Shown one piece after another: positions 37,039 through 46,686 of a stretch of 64,000 bases of DNA. Within the stretch, counting starts at the first letter, position 1; every line of letters starts with the position of its first letter. The translations under genes and the position numbers were made by a program. Under the pieces are notes generated by a model. The model worked only from the letters and a program-made list of their open reading frames with translations, did no database searches and was not told where the DNA came from. Origin of the DNA: Roseitalea sp. MMSF_3546 (GTDB taxonomy: Bacteria; Pseudomonadota; Alphaproteobacteria; Rhizobiales; Rhizobiaceae); assembly GCF_030732865.1 (NCBI RefSeq), contig NZ_JASHKB010000005.1, positions 62,001-126,000 on the forward strand. The letters are read 5' to 3'.

Positions 37039-38064
37039 CTATTGGAAGGGAATGGCAATTTCCGGGCGGGCCTCCACCCATTCGGGCACGGGCAGGCCCT
37101 TCTCGCGCAGAAAGGCGGGATTGTAGACCTTGGACTGGTAGCGGTGGCCGTAATCGCAAAGGACCGTGACGATGGTGTGGCCGGGCCCCATCTCGCGCGC
37201 CATGCGGATGGCGCCGGCGATGTTGATGCCGGTCGACCCGCCCATCACCATGCCTTCCTCCATGGCCAGCGCGAAGATGATGTCGAGCGCCTCGTCGTCA
37301 GGCACCTGCCAGGCGAAATCGGGCGCGAAACCCTCCAGATTGGCCGTGATCCGGCCCTGGCCGATGCCCTCGGTGATCGAGCCGCCCTGCGATTTCAGTT
37401 CGCCGGTGGTGTAGTAGCTGAAGAGCGCGGCGCCCATCGGGTCGGCGATGCCGATCTTCATTTCGCTGTTGCGGGCGCGCAGGCCCTCGGCGACGCCGGC
37501 GAGTGTGCCGCCCGAGCCGACCGCGCAGACAAAGCCGTCGACCGTGCCGTCCGTCTGCTGCCAGATTTCCGGCGCGGTGGTGTCGATGTGAGCCTGCCGG
37601 TTGACGACATTGTCGAACTGGTTGGCCCAGATGGCGCCGTTCGGTTCGGTTTTCGCCATCTGCTCGGCAAGCCGTCCCGACAGGCGCACATAGTTGTTCG
37701 GATTGCGATAGGGCACCGCCGGCACCTCGATCAGTTCGGCCCCGCCAAGGCGCAGCGCGTCTTTCTTTTCCTGCGTCTGCGTTTCGGGAATCACGATCAC
37801 CGTGCGATAGCCGAGCGCGCGCGCCACCATGGCCAGCCCGATGCCGGTATTGCCGGCCGTGCCCTCGACGATCACGCCGCCGGGACGCAGGACGCCGCGC
37901 GCCTCGGCATCGCGGACGATGGCGAGCGCCGCCCGATCCTTGACCGACTGGCCGGGGTTGAGGAATTCGGCCTTGCCCAGGATCGTGCAGCCGGTCTCCT
38001 CGGAGGCGCGCCGGAGCTTGATCAGCGGGGTGTTGCCGATCAACTCGATGATCGAAGTGTGCAT
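37039..38064 (-). CDS. cysK: Cysteine synthase A (O-acetylserine sulfhydrylase)
   Basis: PLP enzyme making cysteine from O-acetylserine and sulfide. The PLP lysine is K42 in NPGQSVKDRAAL; EGTAGNTGIGLAM is the substrate loop; VCAVGSGGTLAGVAEGL is the phosphate-binding loop. Length 341 aa. ATG 38064 is chosen because GGAG lies 6 nt upstream; an ATG at 38076 is also in frame. It leads the leftward group toward alaX and sseA. Confidence 0.93.
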   Translation of the reverse strand: MHTSIIELIGNTPLIKLRRASEETGCTILGKAEFLNPGQSVKDRAALAIVRDAEARGVLRPGGVIVEGTAGNTGIGLAMVARALGYRTVIVIPETQTQEKKDALRLGGAELIEVPAVPYRNPNNYVRLSGRLAEQMAKTEPNGAIWANQFDNVVNRQAHIDTTAPEIWQQTDGTVDGFVCAVGSGGTLAGVAEGLRARNSEMKIGIADPMGAALFSYYTTGELKSQGGSITEGIGQGRITANLEGFAPDFAWQVPDDEALDIIFALAMEEGMVMGGSTGINIAGAIRMAREMGPGHTIVTVLCDYGHRYQSKVYNPAFLREKGLPVPEWVEARPEIAIPFQ

Positions 38065-38482
38065 GAAATGCTCCATGATTTGTCTGAACGCTCGGGGTCC
38101 GATCCCGGCAAGCCGCATCGCGCTTTTAGCACAGGCAGACGCAAATGTCGGAATCGCGGGACCGCTGGCAACTCCTTGATTTGAAGGCAGCTTTGAATTC
38201 GACATGTGATCGCGCAGCCGATGTCGACCGAAGATCGGATATCGGAATTCGCTTTGCCAGTGTTGACGTTGACCGGCCTGTCCCGCAAGGCATTCATGCC
38301 GGGAGATCAGGGGGTTTGGGGATTTGTTTGCCACAACCGGCCGGTCTTTGCGAACTGGCGATCGAGGGAACCGCCAGCCGGTGATCCGGTTTGTGTGTGC
38401 ACGCGTAGACGTTCGAAAAGGGTGACACCGAGGTTGTCGATCGCCCGACGACGGCGAGCCTCAAGGATAAGGGTCTTCTTGC
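38065..38482. other. Intergenic region between cysK and the ChrR-like gene
   Basis: These 418 bp separate divergent genes. Apart from the sigma-factor-like promoter at 38382-38411 and the presumed cysK promoter, nothing was recognised. Short open frames here lack ribosome sites and family patterns. No RNA gene was identified. Confidence 0.5.
38382..38411 (+). promoter_or_regulatory. Candidate ECF (sigma-E/ECF11-like) promoter upstream of the ChrR-like gene
   Basis: TGATCC at 38382-38387 and TAGACG at 38406-38411 are separated by 18 bp. This matches the TGATCC-N18-TAAG-like promoters recognised by the RpoE sigma factor of Rhodobacter, from memory of that family. The -10 element lies about 71 bp upstream of the ATG at 38483. 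A near-identical site in opposite orientation lies at 46686-46659. Confidence 0.65.
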
Positions 38483-39124
38483 ATGTATCAGGGACAGTTC
38501 GGCTCTCTGGATGCGCTGGTCAGCGGTTATGTGGCGGGCAGCCTGCCGCGGCCGGTCAATGTGCTCATGGATGCGCATCTGGAACTGTCGGAGGCGAACC
38601 GGGCGATGGTCGCCGGGCTCGAGGGCGCGGCCGGACAGGCGTTGGAATCGCTCACGCCGGCGCGCCTTGCGCAGCGCGACAGCCGCCTGGCGGCGATTTT
38701 CGGCTCGAGCGCGCCCGCTGGCACCGAGGTGGCGCCGCGCCGCGCCGGCATGCCGCGCGCGCTTTACGAGTTCACCGGCTATTCGCTGGACGAGGTACCG
38801 TGGAAGACCAAGATGCCCGGATTTCGCGAGTATGACATGGATGATGTGGATGGCTGCCATGTCTCGATGTTCTGGATCAAGCCGGGTCGCACCGTGCCCT
38901 CGCACACCCATGAGGGCATGGAGCTGTCGCTGGTCATCGAAGGGGCCTTTCGTGACGAGCGCGGCCGCTTCGGGCCGGGCGACATCTCGATCGCCGATCC
39001 GTCGGTCGACCACCGGCCCGTGGCCGAGGAAATCGGTCCGTGCATCGGATTTGCCGTCACCGATGCGCCGCTGCGCCTGACCGGTTCGCTGCGTCAGCGC
39101 CTGAGCGACATCCTGTCGATCTGA
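38483..39124 (+). CDS. ChrR-like cupin anti-sigma factor without the zinc cysteines
   Basis: ChrR proteins bind an ECF sigma factor through an N-terminal zinc domain and sense singlet oxygen through a C-terminal cupin. Here the N-terminal HLELSEANR places H32, but Ser36 and Asn39 occupy the places of the usual two cysteines (H-x3-C-x2-C). The cupin half keeps H141, H143, E147 (SHTHEGME) and H177 (DHRP), the metal ligands at the same numbers as Rhodobacter ChrR. Length 213 aa. There is no sigma gene next to it. It may bind no sigma factor, or do so without zinc; subfamilies with this sequence exist, so this is not unique. Confidence 0.82.
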   Translation: MYQGQFGSLDALVSGYVAGSLPRPVNVLMDAHLELSEANRAMVAGLEGAAGQALESLTPARLAQRDSRLAAIFGSSAPAGTEVAPRRAGMPRALYEFTGYSLDEVPWKTKMPGFREYDMDDVDGCHVSMFWIKPGRTVPSHTHEGMELSLVIEGAFRDERGRFGPGDISIADPSVDHRPVAEEIGPCIGFAVTDAPLRLTGSLRQRLSDILSI

Positions 39125-39152: not shown

Positions 39153-39187
39153 AGCCCCTGATGCGTACACCCATCGGGGGCTTTTCT
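39153..39187 (+). terminator. Rho-independent terminator-like hairpin after the ChrR-like gene
   Basis: AGCCCCTGATG (39153-39163) pairs with CATCGGGGGCT (39172-39182) over 11 positions with one G-U pair and an 8-nt loop, followed by TTTCTC. It ends only 25 nt before the next ATG (39212), leaving no room for a separate promoter, so it may attenuate rather than end transcription. Confidence 0.8.
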
Positions 39188-39211
39188 CATGTCCGGTCAC
39201 GAGGAGAATCA

Positions 39212-40051
39212 ATGAGCGCACTTTATCGCATCCGGCCGTCGGACGGGGTGGTCTGGATCACCGGGGCCAGCGCCGGCATCGGCCGCGCGCTCGCGCTCGG
39301 CCTGGCCGCAAAGGGCTATGACGTCGTGGCCACCGCGCGCGGCGCCGACAAGCTCGACGCGCTTGCGGCAGGCAGCGCCGATCTTCTGGGCCGGATCCAT
39401 GCCCTGCCATGCGACGTGACCGACCGGGCGGCGATGGCCGAGGCCGTTGCAACGATCGAAGACCGGCATGGACGGATTGCCGGCGCCGTGTTCAATGCCG
39501 GCAATTTCTGGCCGGTGCCGGGCGAGGCGCTGGATGTCGACGCGTTCGAGAAGACCTATCGGCTCAATCTGTTCGGCCTGATTTACGGCCTCGTGCCGGT
39601 GGTCGAGCGGATGAAGGCGCATGGCCGCGGGCATGTGGTTCTGGTCGGGTCGTCGTCGGGCTATGCCGGCCTGCCGTCGGCGTCGGCCTATGGCGCGTCC
39701 AAGGCGGCGATCAACAACATGGCCGAGGCGCTGAAATTCGATTTCGACAAGCTCAACATCCGCATCCAGATCGTCAATCCGGGCTTCATCGACACGCCGC
39801 AGACGCGCAAGAACGAGTTCGAGATGCCCGCGCTCATGCCGGTCGAGAAGGCGGCGGGGGCCTTCATTGCCGGCATGGAGAACGGCGGCTTCGAGATCAC
39901 CTTCCCGCGCCGTTTCACCTATCTTCTCAAACTGATGCGCATGATGCCGCATCCGGTCTACTTCTGGATCATGCGCCGGGCGACTGGCTGGAACCGGCGC
40001 GCGATGGAATTCGGCGATACCACGCCGGCAAGCGTGATCCGTCAGGGCTGA
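39212..40051 (+). CDS. Short-chain dehydrogenase/reductase
   Basis: The 279-aa enzyme has the NAD(P) motif TGASAGIG (17-24), the NAG motif in FNAGNF, and the catalytic Tyr160 and Lys164 in SASAYGASK with Ser148 region SSSG. A hydrophobic, basic C-terminus (FTYLLKLMRMMPHPVYFW) suggests membrane association. GAGGAG precedes the ATG. Its 3' end overlaps the convergent GPH carrier by 10 bp. Being downstream of the ChrR-like gene it probably shares its promoter. In Rhodobacter a short-chain dehydrogenase also belongs to the photooxidative group, as far as recalled. Confidence 0.88.
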   Translation: MSALYRIRPSDGVVWITGASAGIGRALALGLAAKGYDVVATARGADKLDALAAGSADLLGRIHALPCDVTDRAAMAEAVATIEDRHGRIAGAVFNAGNFWPVPGEALDVDAFEKTYRLNLFGLIYGLVPVVERMKAHGRGHVVLVGSSSGYAGLPSASAYGASKAAINNMAEALKFDFDKLNIRIQIVNPGFIDTPQTRKNEFEMPALMPVEKAAGAFIAGMENGGFEITFPRRFTYLLKLMRMMPHPVYFWIMRRATGWNRRAMEFGDTTPASVIRQG

Positions 40052-41403
40052 GCCGAGCCGGCCGATTCGATCGTGCGGCGCAGCGCGGACTGTTCGGCCG
40101 CATCGAGCGGGAAATTCCATACCAGGGCGATCGCACCGAGCTTCAGGGCGATGGGCACCCAGCCATAGGTGATCGCAAGACCCGCAAGCGCCACCGGATC
40201 CTGATCCGGGCCGGCGCCGGCCCGAAAGCCGAATGCATCGAGCACCGGAAAGGCAAGACCGACCGCGAGCGCCAGCGACAGCTTGGTCGAAAGGCTCCAG
40301 GCCGCGAAATAAAGCCCGGAGCGTTGTTCGCCCGAGCCGGCGGTGTCGACATCGATGACGTCGGCCTGGATGGCCGGCGGAATGGCCAGATCGAAGCCGA
40401 CCAGCAGGCCGGTCACCGCGCAGATCACGGCGAAGGCGGCGATGTCGCCCTGCGACAACAGCGGCACCGGCGCGAACACGATCGCCGCGCAGATCATGCC
40501 CAGCGCCCAGGCCCGGTGCTTGCCGATCCTGCGCGCTGCCCAGGCGGCCAGCGGCACGCCGGCAACGCCGCATGCGAAGTAAAGGAACAGCAATGGCCCG
40601 CGCATCGCCTCTGCCCCCAGCACGTCGGCGACGAAGAGCAGGAACAGCGTGGCGGGAATGCCGTTGGCAAGCCCGTTGAGGAAGAAGGCCGCGATCAGCC
40701 GGATGAAGGGCCGGTTGCGAGCCAGATGGCCGAGACCCTCGCGCCATCGCACGCGTTCGCGCGTGAACTCGCGCGGTTCGGGAACGGTGAAGACGGCGAA
40801 CAGCCCCAGTACGGGCAGGCTGGCGGCGATGACGACGGCCAGCAGCGCAAGGCCGTGGAAGGATCGCGCGTCGTCGAGGCCGAGCGCGAAGGGCAGGGCG
40901 ATGGCGATCAGCGTGCCGGTCAGGGTCAAGCCCTCGCGCCATCCGGCGATTGTGGTGCGGCCGCCATAGGCGCCGGTCATCTCCGCGCCCCAGGCAAAAA
41001 AGGGGATGACGGAGGCGGTGTAGCCGACCGACAGGATCGCGCCCCAGGCAAACAGATAGAGCACGCCCGCCTCGGCGGGTGGCCAGAACAGCATGAAGGC
41101 CGCGAGCGCGGTCAGCGGCAGCGAGGCGGCGAACAGGGTGCGGCGCCGGCCGAAGGGTGTGCGCAGCCGGTCGGCGATCACGCCGATGAGGGGATCGTTG
41201 ACGGCATCGAGAATGCGCACGAAGAGCAGCGCGGTGCCGATCGCCGCCAGCGGCAGGCCGACGGCCTCGGCATAGAAGGTCGGCACCAGAATGTAGAGCG
41301 GCAGGGTGAGCGCGGCCAGCGGGATCGCCGGCAGGGCATAGGCGATGATGCGCGCCAGGGTCGGCGGCGCGGTGTCCGATGGCGGACGGTGGGGCTCGCG
41401 CAT
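40042..41403 (-). CDS. GPH-family (glycoside-pentoside-hexuronide type) MFS transporter
   Basis: The 453-aa membrane protein has about twelve hydrophobic segments and the GPH motifs LPLYILVPTFYAEAVGL, FVRILDAVNDPLIGVIADR and RTPFGRRRTLFA. The family usually couples sugar uptake to cations, but members in photooxidative-stress clusters lack a known substrate. AAAGG lies just upstream of the ATG. It is downstream of cfa on the same strand, separated by a repeat-rich 187 bp. Confidence 0.88.
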   Translation of the reverse strand: MREPHRPPSDTAPPTLARIIAYALPAIPLAALTLPLYILVPTFYAEAVGLPLAAIGTALLFVRILDAVNDPLIGVIADRLRTPFGRRRTLFAASLPLTALAAFMLFWPPAEAGVLYLFAWGAILSVGYTASVIPFFAWGAEMTGAYGGRTTIAGWREGLTLTGTLIAIALPFALGLDDARSFHGLALLAVVIAASLPVLGLFAVFTVPEPREFTRERVRWREGLGHLARNRPFIRLIAAFFLNGLANGIPATLFLLFVADVLGAEAMRGPLLFLYFACGVAGVPLAAWAARRIGKHRAWALGMICAAIVFAPVPLLSQGDIAAFAVICAVTGLLVGFDLAIPPAIQADVIDVDTAGSGEQRSGLYFAAWSLSTKLSLALAVGLAFPVLDAFGFRAGAGPDQDPVALAGLAITYGWVPIALKLGAIALVWNFPLDAAEQSALRRTIESAGSAQP

Positions 41404-41590: not shown

Positions 41591-42871
41591 TCAATTGGCG
41601 GGCTTGGCGAAGGTCATCTGGCGCACATCGATGAACTCGGCGCGGAAGCCGGCCTCGCAATAGAACAGATAGAACTCCCACAGACGCTTGAAGCGGTCGT
41701 CGAACCCCATGCGCGCGATCTGGTCCCAGGCGGACCAGAAGCGGTGGCGCCAGTCGGCCAGGGTGCGTGCGTAGTCCTGCGGAAAGATGTGTTCGTTGAC
41801 CAGCCGCATGGCGTGGCGCGTGCCCAGATCGTAAAGCGCGCTGGGCGGCGGCAGCATGCCGCCGGGAAACACGTAGCGCTGAATGAAGTCGGGCTGGCGC
41901 CGATAGACGGGAAACGCCTTGTCGTTGATCGTGATGATCTGAAGGCCGGCCTTGCCGCCCGGCTTGAGCACGTCGCGCAGCTTGGCGAAATAGGTCTCCC
42001 AATACTGCTCGCCCACCGCCTCGAACATCTCGATGGAGACGACCTTGTCATAGGTATCGCGTTCGTCGCGGTAATCCTGGAACTTGATGGTGACCTTGTG
42101 GTCGAGCCCGGCTGCGCGCATGCGCTGCCGGGCAAAGTCCATCTGCTCGCGGCTGATCGTCAGACCGGTCACGGTGCAGCCGATCTCGCGGGCGGCGAAC
42201 TCGGCAAAGCCGCCCCAGCCGCAGCCGATCTCGAGCACGTGATCGTCCTTGCCGATGCCGGCCGCCCTGGCCAGGGCGCGATACTTGGCGGTCTGGGCGC
42301 TCTCCAGGTCGTTGGCGCCGCCGGCGAACAGCGCCGACGAATAGGTCATGGTCGGGTCGAGCCAGAGCGAATAGAAGGCGTTGCCGAGATCGTAATGGGC
42401 GGCGATGTTCTTTTGCGCCTTGGTGCGCGTGTTGCGGTTGAGCCAGTGCCGGATGCGCGAGAAGAACTTCACCGTGGCGCCGGCGGTCGCCAGGCGTTCG
42501 CCCAGTTCCTCGTTGACGACGAACAGTTCCAGGAAGGAGGTCACGTCCGGGCTTTCCCAGTCGCCGTCGACGTAGCTCTCGGCCACCCCGATCGTGCCGC
42601 CGGCAAGGGCGCGCCGGGCCAGATCCCAATTGTGCAGGATGACGACCGCATCGGGACCCTCGGCCTTGCCGGCGATGCGCACGGAGCGCCCGTCGGGCAT
42701 GCGGATGGTCAGCGAGCCCCTTGGCAGATTGAGGGCGGCGCGCAGGGCGAGGCGGGCCTTGACGGGCAATCCCGCCAGGTAGCGCGAGATGTTCTGGGGA
42801 GTCAGTGTCTCGGCCGCCGCGATGATCTGTTCGGCTTGCTCCCGGCCGTTGAGCGTTTGCGTCGCTGCCAT
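41591..42871 (-). CDS. cfa: Cyclopropane-fatty-acyl-phospholipid synthase family methyltransferase
   Basis: Methylates double bonds of membrane phospholipid acyl chains using S-adenosylmethionine. The SAM site is VLEIGCGWGGFAEFAAREIG, followed by GLTISREQMDFAR and KVVSIEMFEAVGEQYW, typical of the family. Residues 1-120 form the N-terminal lipid-binding part. Length 426 aa. ATG 42871 is preferred over a TTG one codon before. It lies in the photolyase operon, the setting of the sigma-E-controlled cfaA of Rhodobacter. A furan-fatty-acid role is possible but not shown. Confidence 0.88.
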   Translation of the reverse strand: MAATQTLNGREQAEQIIAAAETLTPQNISRYLAGLPVKARLALRAALNLPRGSLTIRMPDGRSVRIAGKAEGPDAVVILHNWDLARRALAGGTIGVAESYVDGDWESPDVTSFLELFVVNEELGERLATAGATVKFFSRIRHWLNRNTRTKAQKNIAAHYDLGNAFYSLWLDPTMTYSSALFAGGANDLESAQTAKYRALARAAGIGKDDHVLEIGCGWGGFAEFAAREIGCTVTGLTISREQMDFARQRMRAAGLDHKVTIKFQDYRDERDTYDKVVSIEMFEAVGEQYWETYFAKLRDVLKPGGKAGLQIITINDKAFPVYRRQPDFIQRYVFPGGMLPPPSALYDLGTRHAMRLVNEHIFPQDYARTLADWRHRFWSAWDQIARMGFDDRFKRLWEFYLFYCEAGFRAEFIDVRQMTFAKPAN

Positions 42872-42908
42872 CAATGCCCGCCCCTTGTTCTTGCCTGTTC
42901 GCAGGGAA

Positions 42909-43769
42909 TCATTCGGCGGGATCGGGCGCAGCGTCCTCGTACGAGACAGGTCGCGGTGGCCGGCCCCGCGCGTGAAACTTCGCGCCCTTGAGCCACAATT
43001 TCAAGGCTTGCCAATGAATTCCGGCGATTACCTTGAGCGTCATGAAAGGCAGGCGGGCGATCTGGCCGAGCAGATGGGCGGTGTCGAGCGGCTGTGCCGA
43101 GCCCGAAAAGGTCGCCGAAAGCAGCGGTTGTGCGTCCTCGGTCTCGAGGATCCTCACGCGCACTTGCTGGCCCGGCGGCAAGACGCGGAAATGGTAGCGC
43201 GCGCCAAGATCGATGAAGGGCGAGACATAGAAGATCTTGGTGCGCTCCTGGCGCAGACCCGCCGGGGTGAGCTGGCCGGGCTCGACGGCGCAGACATAGG
43301 TGTGGCGTTCGCCGAAGGTGTTGCGCACCTCGTAGATGGCCGCGCTCAGCCGGTCGGCGGCGTCATAACAGAAATACACCGAAAGCGGGTTGAAGACGTA
43401 GCCGAGCAGGCGCGGATAGGCGAGCAGCAGGATGCGCGCCGGGCGCCGGCCGCCGCCCTGTTCGACGAGCGCGCTCGCATAGTCGCGCAGCGTGGCGTGG
43501 CCGCCGTCCGCGGGCAGATGGTCGGCCTGGTGGAAGGCGGCGAGGTTGAACCGGTCGACCGAGAACAGCGGCGAGGCGGCGTCGATCTCGGCCAGCCGGT
43601 CAAGATCGAGCAGGGCTGAGAACACCCGATAGGTGAAGCGGTGGCCGAAGGGTTTCAGGCGCGCATGCATGACCTTGCCCGGATAGAGCAGGGCGGGCGC
43701 ATCGGGCGGGGCGAAGACCGGCGCTTCGCCGGGTGCGCCGTGGGTCGGTATGCTGGCGTGGACGGTCAT
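42909..43769 (-). CDS. DUF1365 family protein
   Basis: The 286-aa product begins a conserved LLYPGKVMHARLKPFGHRFT and includes LLAYPRLLGYVFNPLSVYFCY, the DUF1365 signature, then FGERHTYVCAV and VSPFIDLGARYHFRV. Biochemical role is not known; the family is regularly encoded with cfa-like and FAD-oxidase genes. The ATG lies 11 nt after the stop of the FAD enzyme gene. Confidence 0.88.
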   Translation of the reverse strand: MTVHASIPTHGAPGEAPVFAPPDAPALLYPGKVMHARLKPFGHRFTYRVFSALLDLDRLAEIDAASPLFSVDRFNLAAFHQADHLPADGGHATLRDYASALVEQGGGRRPARILLLAYPRLLGYVFNPLSVYFCYDAADRLSAAIYEVRNTFGERHTYVCAVEPGQLTPAGLRQERTKIFYVSPFIDLGARYHFRVLPPGQQVRVRILETEDAQPLLSATFSGSAQPLDTAHLLGQIARLPFMTLKVIAGIHWQALKLWLKGAKFHARGRPPRPVSYEDAAPDPAE

Positions 43770-43780
43770 GGCCGTGCAGA

Positions 43781-45130
43781 CTATTCGGCGGCCACGGGCA
43801 TGGAAAGGTCCGGCAGATCGCCGCGCCAGGGAATGTGACCGCCCAGCGCCTCGGCGGCGGCCAGACCCGAACGCAGGCCGTCCTCGTGAAAGCCGTAGCC
43901 GGTCCAGGCGCCGGCGAACCAGACGGCGCGCCGCCCCTGGATCAGGGAAAGCCGTGCCTGGGCGGCGAAGGCGCGCGCGTCGTATTGGGGATGATCGAAG
44001 CTCCACTCGCCGAACACGGTCCCCGGCGCGGGCTCGTGGCTGGGGTTGAGACTGACAAACAGCGGATAGCGCGGGTCGATGTTCTGCAGCCGGTTCATCC
44101 AGTAGGTCACGCAGATGTCGCTTTCCTCGCCGCGTGCGCTCTCGCGCAGATAGTTCCAGGCGGCCCAGGCGCGCTTGCGGCGCGGCATGAAGCCGGGATC
44201 GCGGTGCAGGACGGCGCGGTTCGGCCGATAGGGGATCGCCGACAGGATATCGCGCTCATTGGCATCGGCATCGGCCAGCATGGCCAGGGCCTGATCGGAA
44301 TGGGCGGCGATGACGACGGCGTCGAACCGGGTGCGTTCGCCGTCGGCCGTCGTGACGATCGCACCGCCGTCTGCCGGCCGTTCGATGCGCGCGACCGGTG
44401 TCGCCACGCGCACGCGCCCGTCAAGCCGGGCAAGCATCTTGTCGAGATAGTTGCGCGCGCCGCCCGAAACCGTGCGCCACAGCGGCGGCCGGGTCTCGAG
44501 CAGCCGGTGGTTTTCGAAGAACTGCACGAAGGTAAGGGCCGGAAAGTCCAGCATGCGGACCTTCGGGGTCGACCAGATGGCGGCGGCCATGGGGATGAGG
44601 TAATCGTCGCGAAAGCGGGCCGAAAAGCCGCGGCGCTCCAGATAGGCCCCGATCGACAGGCCGGCCAGCCGGCCGGCGTCGCGGTCGGCCCGCGCCTGTC
44701 TGTTGAAGCGCAGGATCTCGCGGATCATCCACAAGAACCCCGGCGACAGCGCATTGCGCTTCTGGGCGAAGACCGAAAGGTAATCCTGGCCGCACCATTC
44801 GCGGCGGCCCCGGTCGAGCGACAGCGAAAAGCTCATATTGGTGTCTTCGCAGGCGATGCCGAGATGGTCGAACAGCGCGCACAGTTCGGGATAGTTGCGC
44901 TCGTTGAAAACGATGAAGCCGACATCGACGGGTATGTGCGTGCCGTCATGGTCGACATCGATCGTGCAGGTGTGCCCGCCCGGTCGGGCATCGGCCTCAA
45001 ACAGCGTCACATCCCGGGTGAAGGACAGCGACCATGCGGCCGACACGCCCGCAATTCCGCTGCCGATGACGGCGATACGTCGTTCGATGCCGGCCAGTTC
45101 GAACTGCCCCGGTGCCGGTTTGATGTTCAC
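43781..45130 (-). CDS. FAD-dependent oxidoreductase (amine-oxidase/desaturase-like)
   Basis: The 449-aa flavoprotein has the Rossmann motif RRIAVIGSGIAGVSAAWSL and the conserved FEADARPGGHTCTIDV, with the C-terminal FAD contact FAGAWTGYGFHEDGLRSG. Proteins of this kind with DUF1365 and cfa partners are thought to act on lipids; that is context, not proof. GTG start at 45130 overlaps the photolyase stop (GTGA). Confidence 0.88.
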   Translation of the reverse strand: MNIKPAPGQFELAGIERRIAVIGSGIAGVSAAWSLSFTRDVTLFEADARPGGHTCTIDVDHDGTHIPVDVGFIVFNERNYPELCALFDHLGIACEDTNMSFSLSLDRGRREWCGQDYLSVFAQKRNALSPGFLWMIREILRFNRQARADRDAGRLAGLSIGAYLERRGFSARFRDDYLIPMAAAIWSTPKVRMLDFPALTFVQFFENHRLLETRPPLWRTVSGGARNYLDKMLARLDGRVRVATPVARIERPADGGAIVTTADGERTRFDAVVIAAHSDQALAMLADADANERDILSAIPYRPNRAVLHRDPGFMPRRKRAWAAWNYLRESARGEESDICVTYWMNRLQNIDPRYPLFVSLNPSHEPAPGTVFGEWSFDHPQYDARAFAAQARLSLIQGRRAVWFAGAWTGYGFHEDGLRSGLAAAEALGGHIPWRGDLPDLSMPVAAE

Positions 45131-46584
45131 GCGGCGTGTCTCCTTGTCTGCTCATAGGCGGCAAGCGCCCGCTTGCGCGCCTGCCCGTGGTCGACCATCG
45201 GTTCGGGATAGGTCTCGCCCAGCCGGATGCCGGCGCGGTCGAGGACGTCTTGCGGGGCCTGCCAGGGCTTGTGGATGTATTTGGTATCGAGCGCGGCGAG
45301 CTCGGGCACGTAGCGGCGGACATAGGCGCCGTCCGCGTCGAACTTCTCGCCCTGAAGAACCGGGTTGAAGACGCGGAAATAGGGCGCGGCATCGGCCCCC
45401 GAGCCGGCCACCCACTGCCAGCTCGCCGTGTTGTTGGCCGGGTCGGCGTCGACGAGCGTGTCCCAGAACCAGGCCTCGCCGCGGCGCCAGTCGATCATCA
45501 GATCCTTGATCAGGAAAGAGCCGACGATCATGCGCACGCGGTTGTGCATCCAGCCGGTCTGCCAGAGCTGACGCATGCCGGCGTCGACGATCGGATAGCC
45601 GGTGCGGCCGGCCCGCCAGGCCCGCAGCGCCCTGTCGTCGTCCCGCCAGGGAAAGGCGTCGAAGTCGCTGTTGAAATTGGCCGTCCCGAGGTCGGGGAAA
45701 TGAAACAGCAGGTGGTAGGAGAATTCGCGCCAGGCCAGTTCCTTGCGGAAGGTTTCGAGGTCGCCGGCGGCCACGCCCCTTGCCTTGCCGGCGGCGTGCC
45801 AGACATCGAACGGCGTGATCTCGCCGAAACGCAGATGCGGCGACAGGCGCGACGTGCCCTCAGCGGCAGGCTTGTTGCGTTCGGCCTTGTAGCCGGCAAG
45901 CCCGTCTTCGACGAATTCGGCAAGGCGGGTCTGCGCACCGTGTTCGCCGGGATCCCAGACCTCGGCAATGCCGCCCGACCAGTCGGGCTCTTTCGGCAGC
46001 AGGGACCAATCCTCGAGCCGATCGCTCGCAATCGTCGTGTGATGGGCCCGGATGCTTTCGGGCGCCGGCAGGGGTTCGCGCGGCTCGCCCGATTGCGCAA
46101 AGGCCCGCCAGAAGGGCGAATAGACGCGGTAGGGCCCGCCATCCTTGGTGCGAATGCGGGTCGGCTCGTGCATCAGCGCGCCGTCATGGCTCGCAACCGT
46201 CAGCCCGCGCTCGCCGAGATCGCGCTTGATCTTCTGGTCGAGCTGCACCTCATGGGGCGCGTAGCGGCGGTTCCAGTAGACGGTATCCGCGCCGGTCTCG
46301 GCGATCAGTGCATCGAGCACGGCGGCCGGGTCGCCGCGCCGCAGAACAAGCGGCAGGCCGATGCCTTTCAGGCTGTCGGCAAGGGCGGCCAGCGAATGGT
46401 GCAGCCACCAGCGTTGGGCGCCGCCCAGCGCCGGGCCCGCTTGCGGCGGATCGTCGAATATGAACACGGCGATGACCGGCCGGCCGCTTTGCGCCGCCGC
46501 GGTCAGTGCGCCGTTGTCGCGCAGGCGCAGATCGCTGCGGAACCATACGACGACCGGCGCGTCGGAATCGTCAGCAGGTCGCAT
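45127..46584 (-). CDS. phrB: Deoxyribodipyrimidine photolyase (CPD, class I)
   Basis: Repairs UV-made pyrimidine dimers with light using FAD. The 485 aa show the N-terminal antenna-binding domain (VVWFRSDLRLRDNGAL) and the FAD-binding half with TSRLSPHLRFGEIT, WREFSYHLLFHFPDL, YPIVDAGMRQLWQTGWMHNR and ANNTASWQWVAGSGADAAPY. The set is complete, so the enzyme should be active. It is the first gene of the leftward operon and lies 75 bp downstream of an ECF-type promoter. Confidence 0.93.
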   Translation of the reverse strand: MRPADDSDAPVVVWFRSDLRLRDNGALTAAAQSGRPVIAVFIFDDPPQAGPALGGAQRWWLHHSLAALADSLKGIGLPLVLRRGDPAAVLDALIAETGADTVYWNRRYAPHEVQLDQKIKRDLGERGLTVASHDGALMHEPTRIRTKDGGPYRVYSPFWRAFAQSGEPREPLPAPESIRAHHTTIASDRLEDWSLLPKEPDWSGGIAEVWDPGEHGAQTRLAEFVEDGLAGYKAERNKPAAEGTSRLSPHLRFGEITPFDVWHAAGKARGVAAGDLETFRKELAWREFSYHLLFHFPDLGTANFNSDFDAFPWRDDDRALRAWRAGRTGYPIVDAGMRQLWQTGWMHNRVRMIVGSFLIKDLMIDWRRGEAWFWDTLVDADPANNTASWQWVAGSGADAAPYFRVFNPVLQGEKFDADGAYVRRYVPELAALDTKYIHKPWQAPQDVLDRAGIRLGETYPEPMVDHGQARKRALAAYEQTRRHAA

Positions 46585-46658: not shown

Positions 46659-46686
46659 CTTACGCCGGAATTTGCCGCTTGGATCA
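46659..46686 (-). promoter_or_regulatory. Candidate ECF (sigma-E/ECF11-like) promoter upstream of phrB
   Basis: On the minus strand TGATCC (46686-46681) and TAAGCG (from 46662) are separated by 18 bp, the same form as the site at 38382-38411. The -10 is about 75 bp upstream of the phrB ATG. Together the two sites bracket the whole stress cluster, facing inward. Confidence 0.7.

Follow-up and report, generated by a model that had tools for sequence, protein, structure and literature searches.

A ChrR-like protein with an intact cupin and without zinc cysteines as a putative anti-sigma factor encoded apart from an RpoE-like sigma factor in Roseitalea and its relatives

Gene content of the locus

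The locus was analysed within a stretch of 64,000 nucleotides of contig NZ_JASHKB010000005.1 of Roseitalea sp. MMSF_3546, referred to here as the window. The central gene, on the plus strand at 38483-39124, is an orphan chrR-like gene of 213 codons for amino acids, identified by family profile, structure match and model, whose product joins a zinc-less anti-sigma domain to an intact cupin. A sigma-E-type promoter-like site of the form TGATCC-N16-CGTA (38382-38407, plus strand) begins 101 nt ahead of the chrR start. A PLP-dependent cysteine-synthase-like gene (37039-38154, minus strand, start uncertain) is divergent from chrR and is its neighbour in 41 of 41 loci; constant as this neighbour of orphan chrR is, it was preceded by a sigma-E-type site in 0 of the 41.

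A short-chain dehydrogenase (SDR) gene (39161-40051, plus strand) lies directly downstream of chrR and is its neighbour in 38 of 41 orthologous loci. On the minus strand follow genes for an MFS transporter (40042-41403; in 25 of 41 orthologous loci), a cyclopropane-synthase-like methyltransferase, CMAS (41591-42874; 30 of 41), a DUF1365 protein with uncertain start (42909-43772; 27 of 41), an FAD amine-oxidase-like protein (43781-45130; 26 of 41) and a DNA photolyase (45127-46584; 24 of 41), the last being the first gene of a probable operon. A second promoter-like site, TGATCC-N16-CGTA, lies ahead of the photolyase gene (46661-46686, minus strand), and 17 of 24 orthologous loci have it in exact form. 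On the basis of gene order and protein families, the DUF1365 gene is taken by us to be the counterpart of RSP_1090 and the FAD amine-oxidase-like gene that of RSP_1091. In loci where chrR is linked to its sigma gene, an FAD gene was nearby in 33/46 and a DUF1365 gene in 32/46 (flanks of about 2 kb). The same kind of cluster around the window chrR speaks for a signal path that is still intact and that leads to the cupin and to proteolysis, not to the lost zinc.

Features of the ChrR-like protein

The protein scored 133.7 bits with the ChrR family profile TIGR02451, for which the cut-off is 124.5, and the genome-level match (132.8) was also above it; a Cupin_7 domain was found in the same kind of search. 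With the ChrR equivalog NF051881 the score was 110 bits, below the cut-off of 300. R. sphaeroides ChrR from its complex with sigma-E (2z2s_B) was aligned to the window protein with an E value of 1.8e-35; window residue n+1 corresponds to ChrR residue n in the motif region, and the cupin numbers are identical. This alignment bears out the first-pass annotation, which had described an intact cupin without the zinc cysteines. In codons 32-39 (38576-38599, plus strand) His32 is retained as the equivalent of H31, and Ser36 and Asn39 stand in place of C35 and C38, while the cupin ligands H141, H143, E147 and H177 are all present. The fourth zinc ligand, His6 of R. sphaeroides ChrR, has no His counterpart. 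Both cysteines and the N-terminal ligand of the ZAS zinc-binding signature (H-x3-C-x2-C with an N-terminal His or Cys) are accordingly missing.

The window ChrR was the single TIGR02451 match at E <= 0.01 in its genome, which is 99.5% complete; 38483-39124 encodes the sole ChrR-family protein of this genome, and the second ChrR with a full zinc motif for which a search had been proposed was not found there. A model built from 39 sequences (pLDDT 83.1) placed helices at residues 9-18, 23-35, 37-56 and 65-73. Compared with sigma-bound ChrR (2q1z chain B) it gave a Z score of 19.5 and an rmsd of 3.0 over 180 residues, within residues 8-194. The anti-sigma domain is predicted from this model to have the class I four-helix fold, a likeness of fold that shows no function.

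The unlinked RpoE-like sigma factor

Ten Sigma70_r2 matches (E <= 0.01) were found in the genome and none on the contig of the window, so the earlier observation that no sigma gene stands beside chrR is right for the neighbourhood only and not for the genome. One of the ten is an RpoE-like sigma factor of 190 amino acids (G000:C11:27719-28288, G000 being the window's genome); among solved structures R. sphaeroides RpoE is closest to it (E 7.9e-46). Its gene is solitary, with IalB upstream and DUF1232 downstream, both on the opposite strand; IalB is upstream in 43 of 43 family loci and DUF1232 downstream in 39 of 43. No adjoining anti-sigma gene was seen in the window's genome, and no linked ChrR in the 43 family loci examined. 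An ECF11 RpoE-ChrR system has the anti-sigma gene beside the sigma gene; the window's sigma gene lies on another contig than chrR.

Upstream of the orphan sigma genes the 8-mer AGTTTGAC occurred in 23/72 regions, compared with 0.1 expected. This 8-mer marks a conserved box around CGGCAANAGTTTGACCTTT, noted in part of the sample (for example L076, L096 and L148), which may serve a different regulator or be a promoter of another kind. Assignment of this sigma factor to EcfQ (ECF33) was considered and provisionally set aside on gene context and on RpoE being the nearest solved relative. In Rhizobium johnstonii 3841 (G392) the chrR orthologue is at about 2,083,462-2,084,100 of NC_008380 and its sigma gene at about 4,806,041-4,806,583 of that chromosome; this genome has a second sigma match of 41% identity on another replicon (C7:632142-632672). 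In Rhizobium sp. 32-5/1 the orphan sigma match (L348) stops at about residue 109 with chrR (L252) present, which could be a sequencing error.

Distribution and linkage in the family

A sample of 199 genomes of the family was searched, with relatives including Roseitalea, Oceaniradius, Hoeflea, Ahrensia and Rhizobium. Among the ChrR matches two groups stood apart, one of 42 with 43-100% identity and one of 49 with 24-38%. The sigma matches comprised 43 at 53-100% and 49 at 39-51%, besides a third set of weaker matches to different ECF sigmas. The orphan-type sigma clade was present in all 42 family genomes with orphan ChrR, and the sigma without orphan ChrR was seen in one, G053, which is 88% complete. 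The orphan chrR and sigma genes were never adjacent in these 42 genomes: 37 had them on separate contigs, and in the remaining 5 the distance was 1.1-2.7 Mb. The ordinary sigma-ChrR pairs were at most 1.5 kb apart in 49 of 49. Both kinds were found together in 2 family genomes against 10.3 expected (Fisher p 2.4e-4, uncorrected for kinship). Among the genomes of the order, G257 and G293 each have two ChrR matches and one sigma match, the sigma being on yet another contig.

Coevolution of tree distances was also calculated. The partial r was 0.30 for ChrR and sigma and 0.31 for sigma and DUF1232, and two pairs of unrelated genes were higher; being weak, and no better for ChrR and sigma than for sigma and DUF1232, this measure was dropped as support.

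Loss of the zinc site and conservation of the domain

For residue counts, 69 orphan ChrR (all 42 of the family and 27 of the order) were compared with 46 linked ChrR (26 of the 49 of the family and 20 of the order); the 27 and 20 order loci were picked by hand after their linkage was known, a non-random choice that covers only part of the listed orphan matches. In the orphans Cys35 and Cys38 were each retained in 0/69, His31 in 63/69 and each cupin ligand in 69/69. In the linked proteins Cys35 was kept in 43/46, Cys38 in 39/46, and His31 and the cupin ligands in 46/46. An N-terminal His was present in 7/42 orphan compared with 26/26 linked family members. The loss of the zinc cysteines goes beyond chance, since the same loss is found in 69/69 sampled relatives of the clade. 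In a tree of 116 sequences the 69 orphans lay on one side of a branch with support 100/97; judged by this tree, the orphan zinc-less ChrR form a well-supported clade and not a local oddity. In the first sigma tree, which included a very distant outgroup (branch of about 10), the unlinked group needed 2 changes; with the outgroup removed it lay on one side of a branch with SH-aLRT 98 (every second row plus the class-level rows).

The first-pass annotation had left two ways out of the zinc loss, namely that the protein senses without holding a sigma factor or that it holds one in another way. The mean conservation of anti-sigma helices I-III was 0.58 in orphans and 0.60 in linked ChrR. Leu69, Ile72 and Phe73 of helix IV (window positions) were more conserved in orphan than in linked ChrR, and Pro24 (window numbering) was 90% conserved among orphans. 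By these values the anti-sigma domain of the orphans appears not to be decaying. Sensing without a sigma partner found no support and is judged improbable. The other way out gained indirect support from the unlinked sigma in 42/42 genomes, the conserved domain and the ChrR fold of the model.

Three sigma-linked ChrR (L173, L176 and L331, of G136, G084 and G262) have both zinc cysteines replaced, by Ser/Ser, Ser/Ser and Ser/Ala respectively, and lie in different parts of the tree. As both cysteines are gone in these 3/46, a pair can apparently stay linked without the zinc.

Sigma-E-type promoter sites

Sites were counted as exact matches to TGATCC-N15-17-CGTA within 300 nt upstream, a pattern derived from these sequences and matched in linked pairs, with no curated model behind it. 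The exact site was upstream of orphan chrR in 61/69 (family 39/42, order 22/27) and upstream of the unlinked sigma gene in 0/72 (family 0/43, order 0/29). In the linked pairs it was upstream of sigma in 40/46 (family 24/26, order 16/20) and upstream of chrR in 0/46 (family 0/26, order 0/20). Shuffles of the family promoter sets gave 0.0, the order sets being counted without shuffles. With one mismatch allowed, a site was found in 1/43 family unlinked sigma genes (0.7 in shuffles) and in 1/26 linked chrR. The earlier suggestion of a modified feedback loop is thereby supported indirectly, through a sigma-type site that stands before chrR and not before the sigma gene.

The other genes of the orphan loci rarely had the exact site (SDR 1/38, MFS 1/24, CMAS 2/29, DUF1365 1/27, FAD gene 2/26), in line with transcription reaching them by read-through from chrR and photolyase. 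With a looser pattern, used at first, the window had 2 matches, and as many or more were obtained in 8/100 shuffles; the case therefore rests on the conserved positions and not on the count in the window. The window's genome contains 8 exact N15-17 matches, of which 2 are in the chrR cluster and 4 inside ORFs of at least 100 aa. Two exact matches outside such ORFs, L179 (G000:C6:64968) and L184 (G000:C44:76631), are possible further targets. Pattern counts per genome showed no visible separation of genomes with and without the sigma, a motif of 10 bases having too many chance matches.

Occurrence in the class

In a class-level sample 45 of 289 genomes had a sigma match at E <= 1e-50, two of them being the genome of the window and another from its order; the remaining 43 matches were at 46-55% identity. 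At 19 of these loci that were inspected, a ChrR match adjoined the sigma in 12 and not in 7. The separation of the sigma is less clean outside the window's order. A ChrR match at E <= 1e-33 was found in 6/289 class genomes, three of which come from the window's order, its own genome among them, and three from outside (G517, G620 and G519). The orphan ChrR of these three have lost both zinc cysteines, carry the promoter site upstream and are distant from the sigma gene. In these genomes the sigma also has its own linked ChrR, whose zinc cysteines are missing in part or altogether, and the sigma gene has no such site within 350 nt. The two-ChrR genomes outside the order are represented by loci L355, L365 and L366 with L356, L353 and L354. 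The linked form is also present in a further genome, G622 (L357), which is absent from the class ChrR matches at E <= 1e-33. With G517, G620 and G519 added, orphan and linked ChrR were still divided by one separating branch (SH-aLRT 96, every second row).

Proposed mechanism and alternatives

A bacterial light-stress switch that is normally made of two adjoining genes seems to be pulled apart here, with the restrainer placed among the genes that it probably controls. The reading we prefer, at a probability of about 0.68, is that the orphan protein is a zinc-independent ChrR-type anti-sigma factor acting in trans on the orphan RpoE, and that the autoregulated operon was rewired into a mainly negative feedback loop. 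The anti-sigma domain would keep its four-helix fold without zinc and clamp the RpoE-like sigma encoded elsewhere (G000:C11:27719-28288). Singlet oxygen or peroxide, acting via the intact cupin and the neighbouring fatty-acid and FAD genes, would lead to destruction of ChrR. The sigma thus freed would switch on the photolyase operon and chrR itself. As the sigma's promoter is on chrR and not on the sigma gene, the loop would be mainly one of negative feedback, compared with the autoregulated operon of R. sphaeroides. Binding, inhibition, independence of zinc, the signal and the use of the promoters are what we infer for this system from the comparisons above.

R. sphaeroides ChrR cannot inhibit sigma-E without zinc (PMC6852236), and an anti-sigma factor of Neisseria related to it depends on its cysteines (PMC2893595); the loss could on these grounds mean lost inhibition. 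In favour of the preferred reading, a survey of class I anti-sigma domains found zinc and zinc-free kinds mixed across the tree, though about 72% of the soluble ones are of the zinc type (PMC7406223), and the three linked ChrR without either cysteine point the same way. Counting against an anti-sigma role in trans, Rhizobium sp. 32-5/1 keeps chrR with its sigma frame broken in the record, and the tree distances of ChrR and sigma show no distinctive coevolution. The conserved box upstream of the sigma genes in part of the sample also leaves room for control of the sigma through transcription alone.

The presence of both linked and orphan ChrR in three genomes outside the order suggests that the orphan started as a regulon-borne second copy. 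A fuller history can be offered tentatively, and we hold it to be somewhat short of an even chance: an ancient zinc-less ChrR was a second, regulon-borne copy beside the ordinary operon, and in the window's order, Hyphomicrobiales/Rhizobiales as judged from its relatives, it may have replaced the linked ChrR as sole inhibitor, splitting the pair. The autoregulated operon would thereby have given way to a loop where the sigma drives synthesis of its inhibitor alone, and sensing would be left entirely to the cupin and the nearby fatty-acid genes.

The same three genomes (G517, G620 and G519), which hold an unlinked zinc-less ChrR with a sigma-type site and a sigma with its own linked ChrR, also speak for a rather unlikely alternative, in which the sigma induces the orphan as an additional ChrR, one that tempers the response or sets its timing and is not the resting inhibitor, the sigma being controlled mainly via its own transcription. 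The single branch between orphan and linked ChrR (SH-aLRT 96, those three included), the upstream regions of the unlinked sigma without the autoregulatory motif (0/72) and the conserved 8-mer in those regions (23/72) fit this alternative too. A linked ChrR for the sigma is, however, unseen in the window's genome and in 43 family loci, so that another factor would be needed to restrain the sigma in the resting state.

Much less probable is that sigma binding was lost and that the protein is a cupin sensor or enzyme within the regulon with a relic N-terminal domain. Such a relic would agree with the loss of both zinc cysteines in 69/69 and with an N-terminal His in only 7/42, but the N-terminal domain is conserved to about the same degree in orphan and linked ChrR, its fold is kept in the model, and a single unlinked sigma clade strictly accompanies the protein. 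That the anti-sigma domain binds metal via other ligands, among them the His32 kept in 63/69, is very improbable, given that the residues at the replaced positions vary (Lys, Ser, Arg, Gln, Asn or Ala at Cys35; Asn, Ser, Ala, His, Gln or Arg at Cys38) and no new invariant set appears. The preferred reading, of a zinc-independent anti-sigma factor acting in trans, is the one placed beside known systems below.

Comparison with known systems

In the open-access literature, as far as its text was available, no printed account of a zinc-less orphan ChrR system was found. In the S. meliloti paper PMC6180224 no heading names ECF11, and a word search gave no mention of ChrR. The anti-sigma survey PMC7406223 covered the region within 10 coding sequences of a sigma and raised orphan anti-sigmas as a possibility. 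Surveys limited to the sigma neighbourhood would miss the whole clade.

The Bradyrhizobium japonicum EcfQ (ECF33) system resembles the present one in that no anti-sigma gene is linked to its ECF sigma gene, and it is induced by hydrogen peroxide and singlet oxygen (PMC3420878). EcfQ differs from the window's sigma in its gene context and, judged by the nearest solved relative, in its ECF group. The window ChrR has a cupin, is soluble by family and is encoded away from the sigma, in contrast to RseA and RskA, which are membrane-bound. What these zinc-free class I proteins share with the window ChrR is a four-helix anti-sigma domain without zinc (PMC7406223, PMC6852236).

The R. sphaeroides RpoE-ChrR system (ECF11, with a ZAS anti-sigma carrying a cupin) shares with the window the ChrR family score, the two-domain fold and the four cupin ligands, as well as the cluster of photolyase, CMAS, DUF1365 and FAD genes (presumed counterparts, judged from gene order and protein family) and the sigma-E-type site. 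The window system differs in being without the anti-sigma zinc site, in its unlinked sigma and in a sigma gene without an autoregulatory site. The linked ChrR pairs of the same family and order share with it the promoter motif (on the sigma gene, 40/46) and an FAD gene and DUF1365 nearby, and differ in that their genes are adjacent and C35 (43/46) and C38 (39/46) are kept. A natural clade that lacks the zinc and has the cupin, the promoter site and the core cluster is a ready test of whether the zinc is structural and the cupin the sensor. With the orphan and linked systems, nature offers two feedback designs for the same stress response that can be compared with each other.
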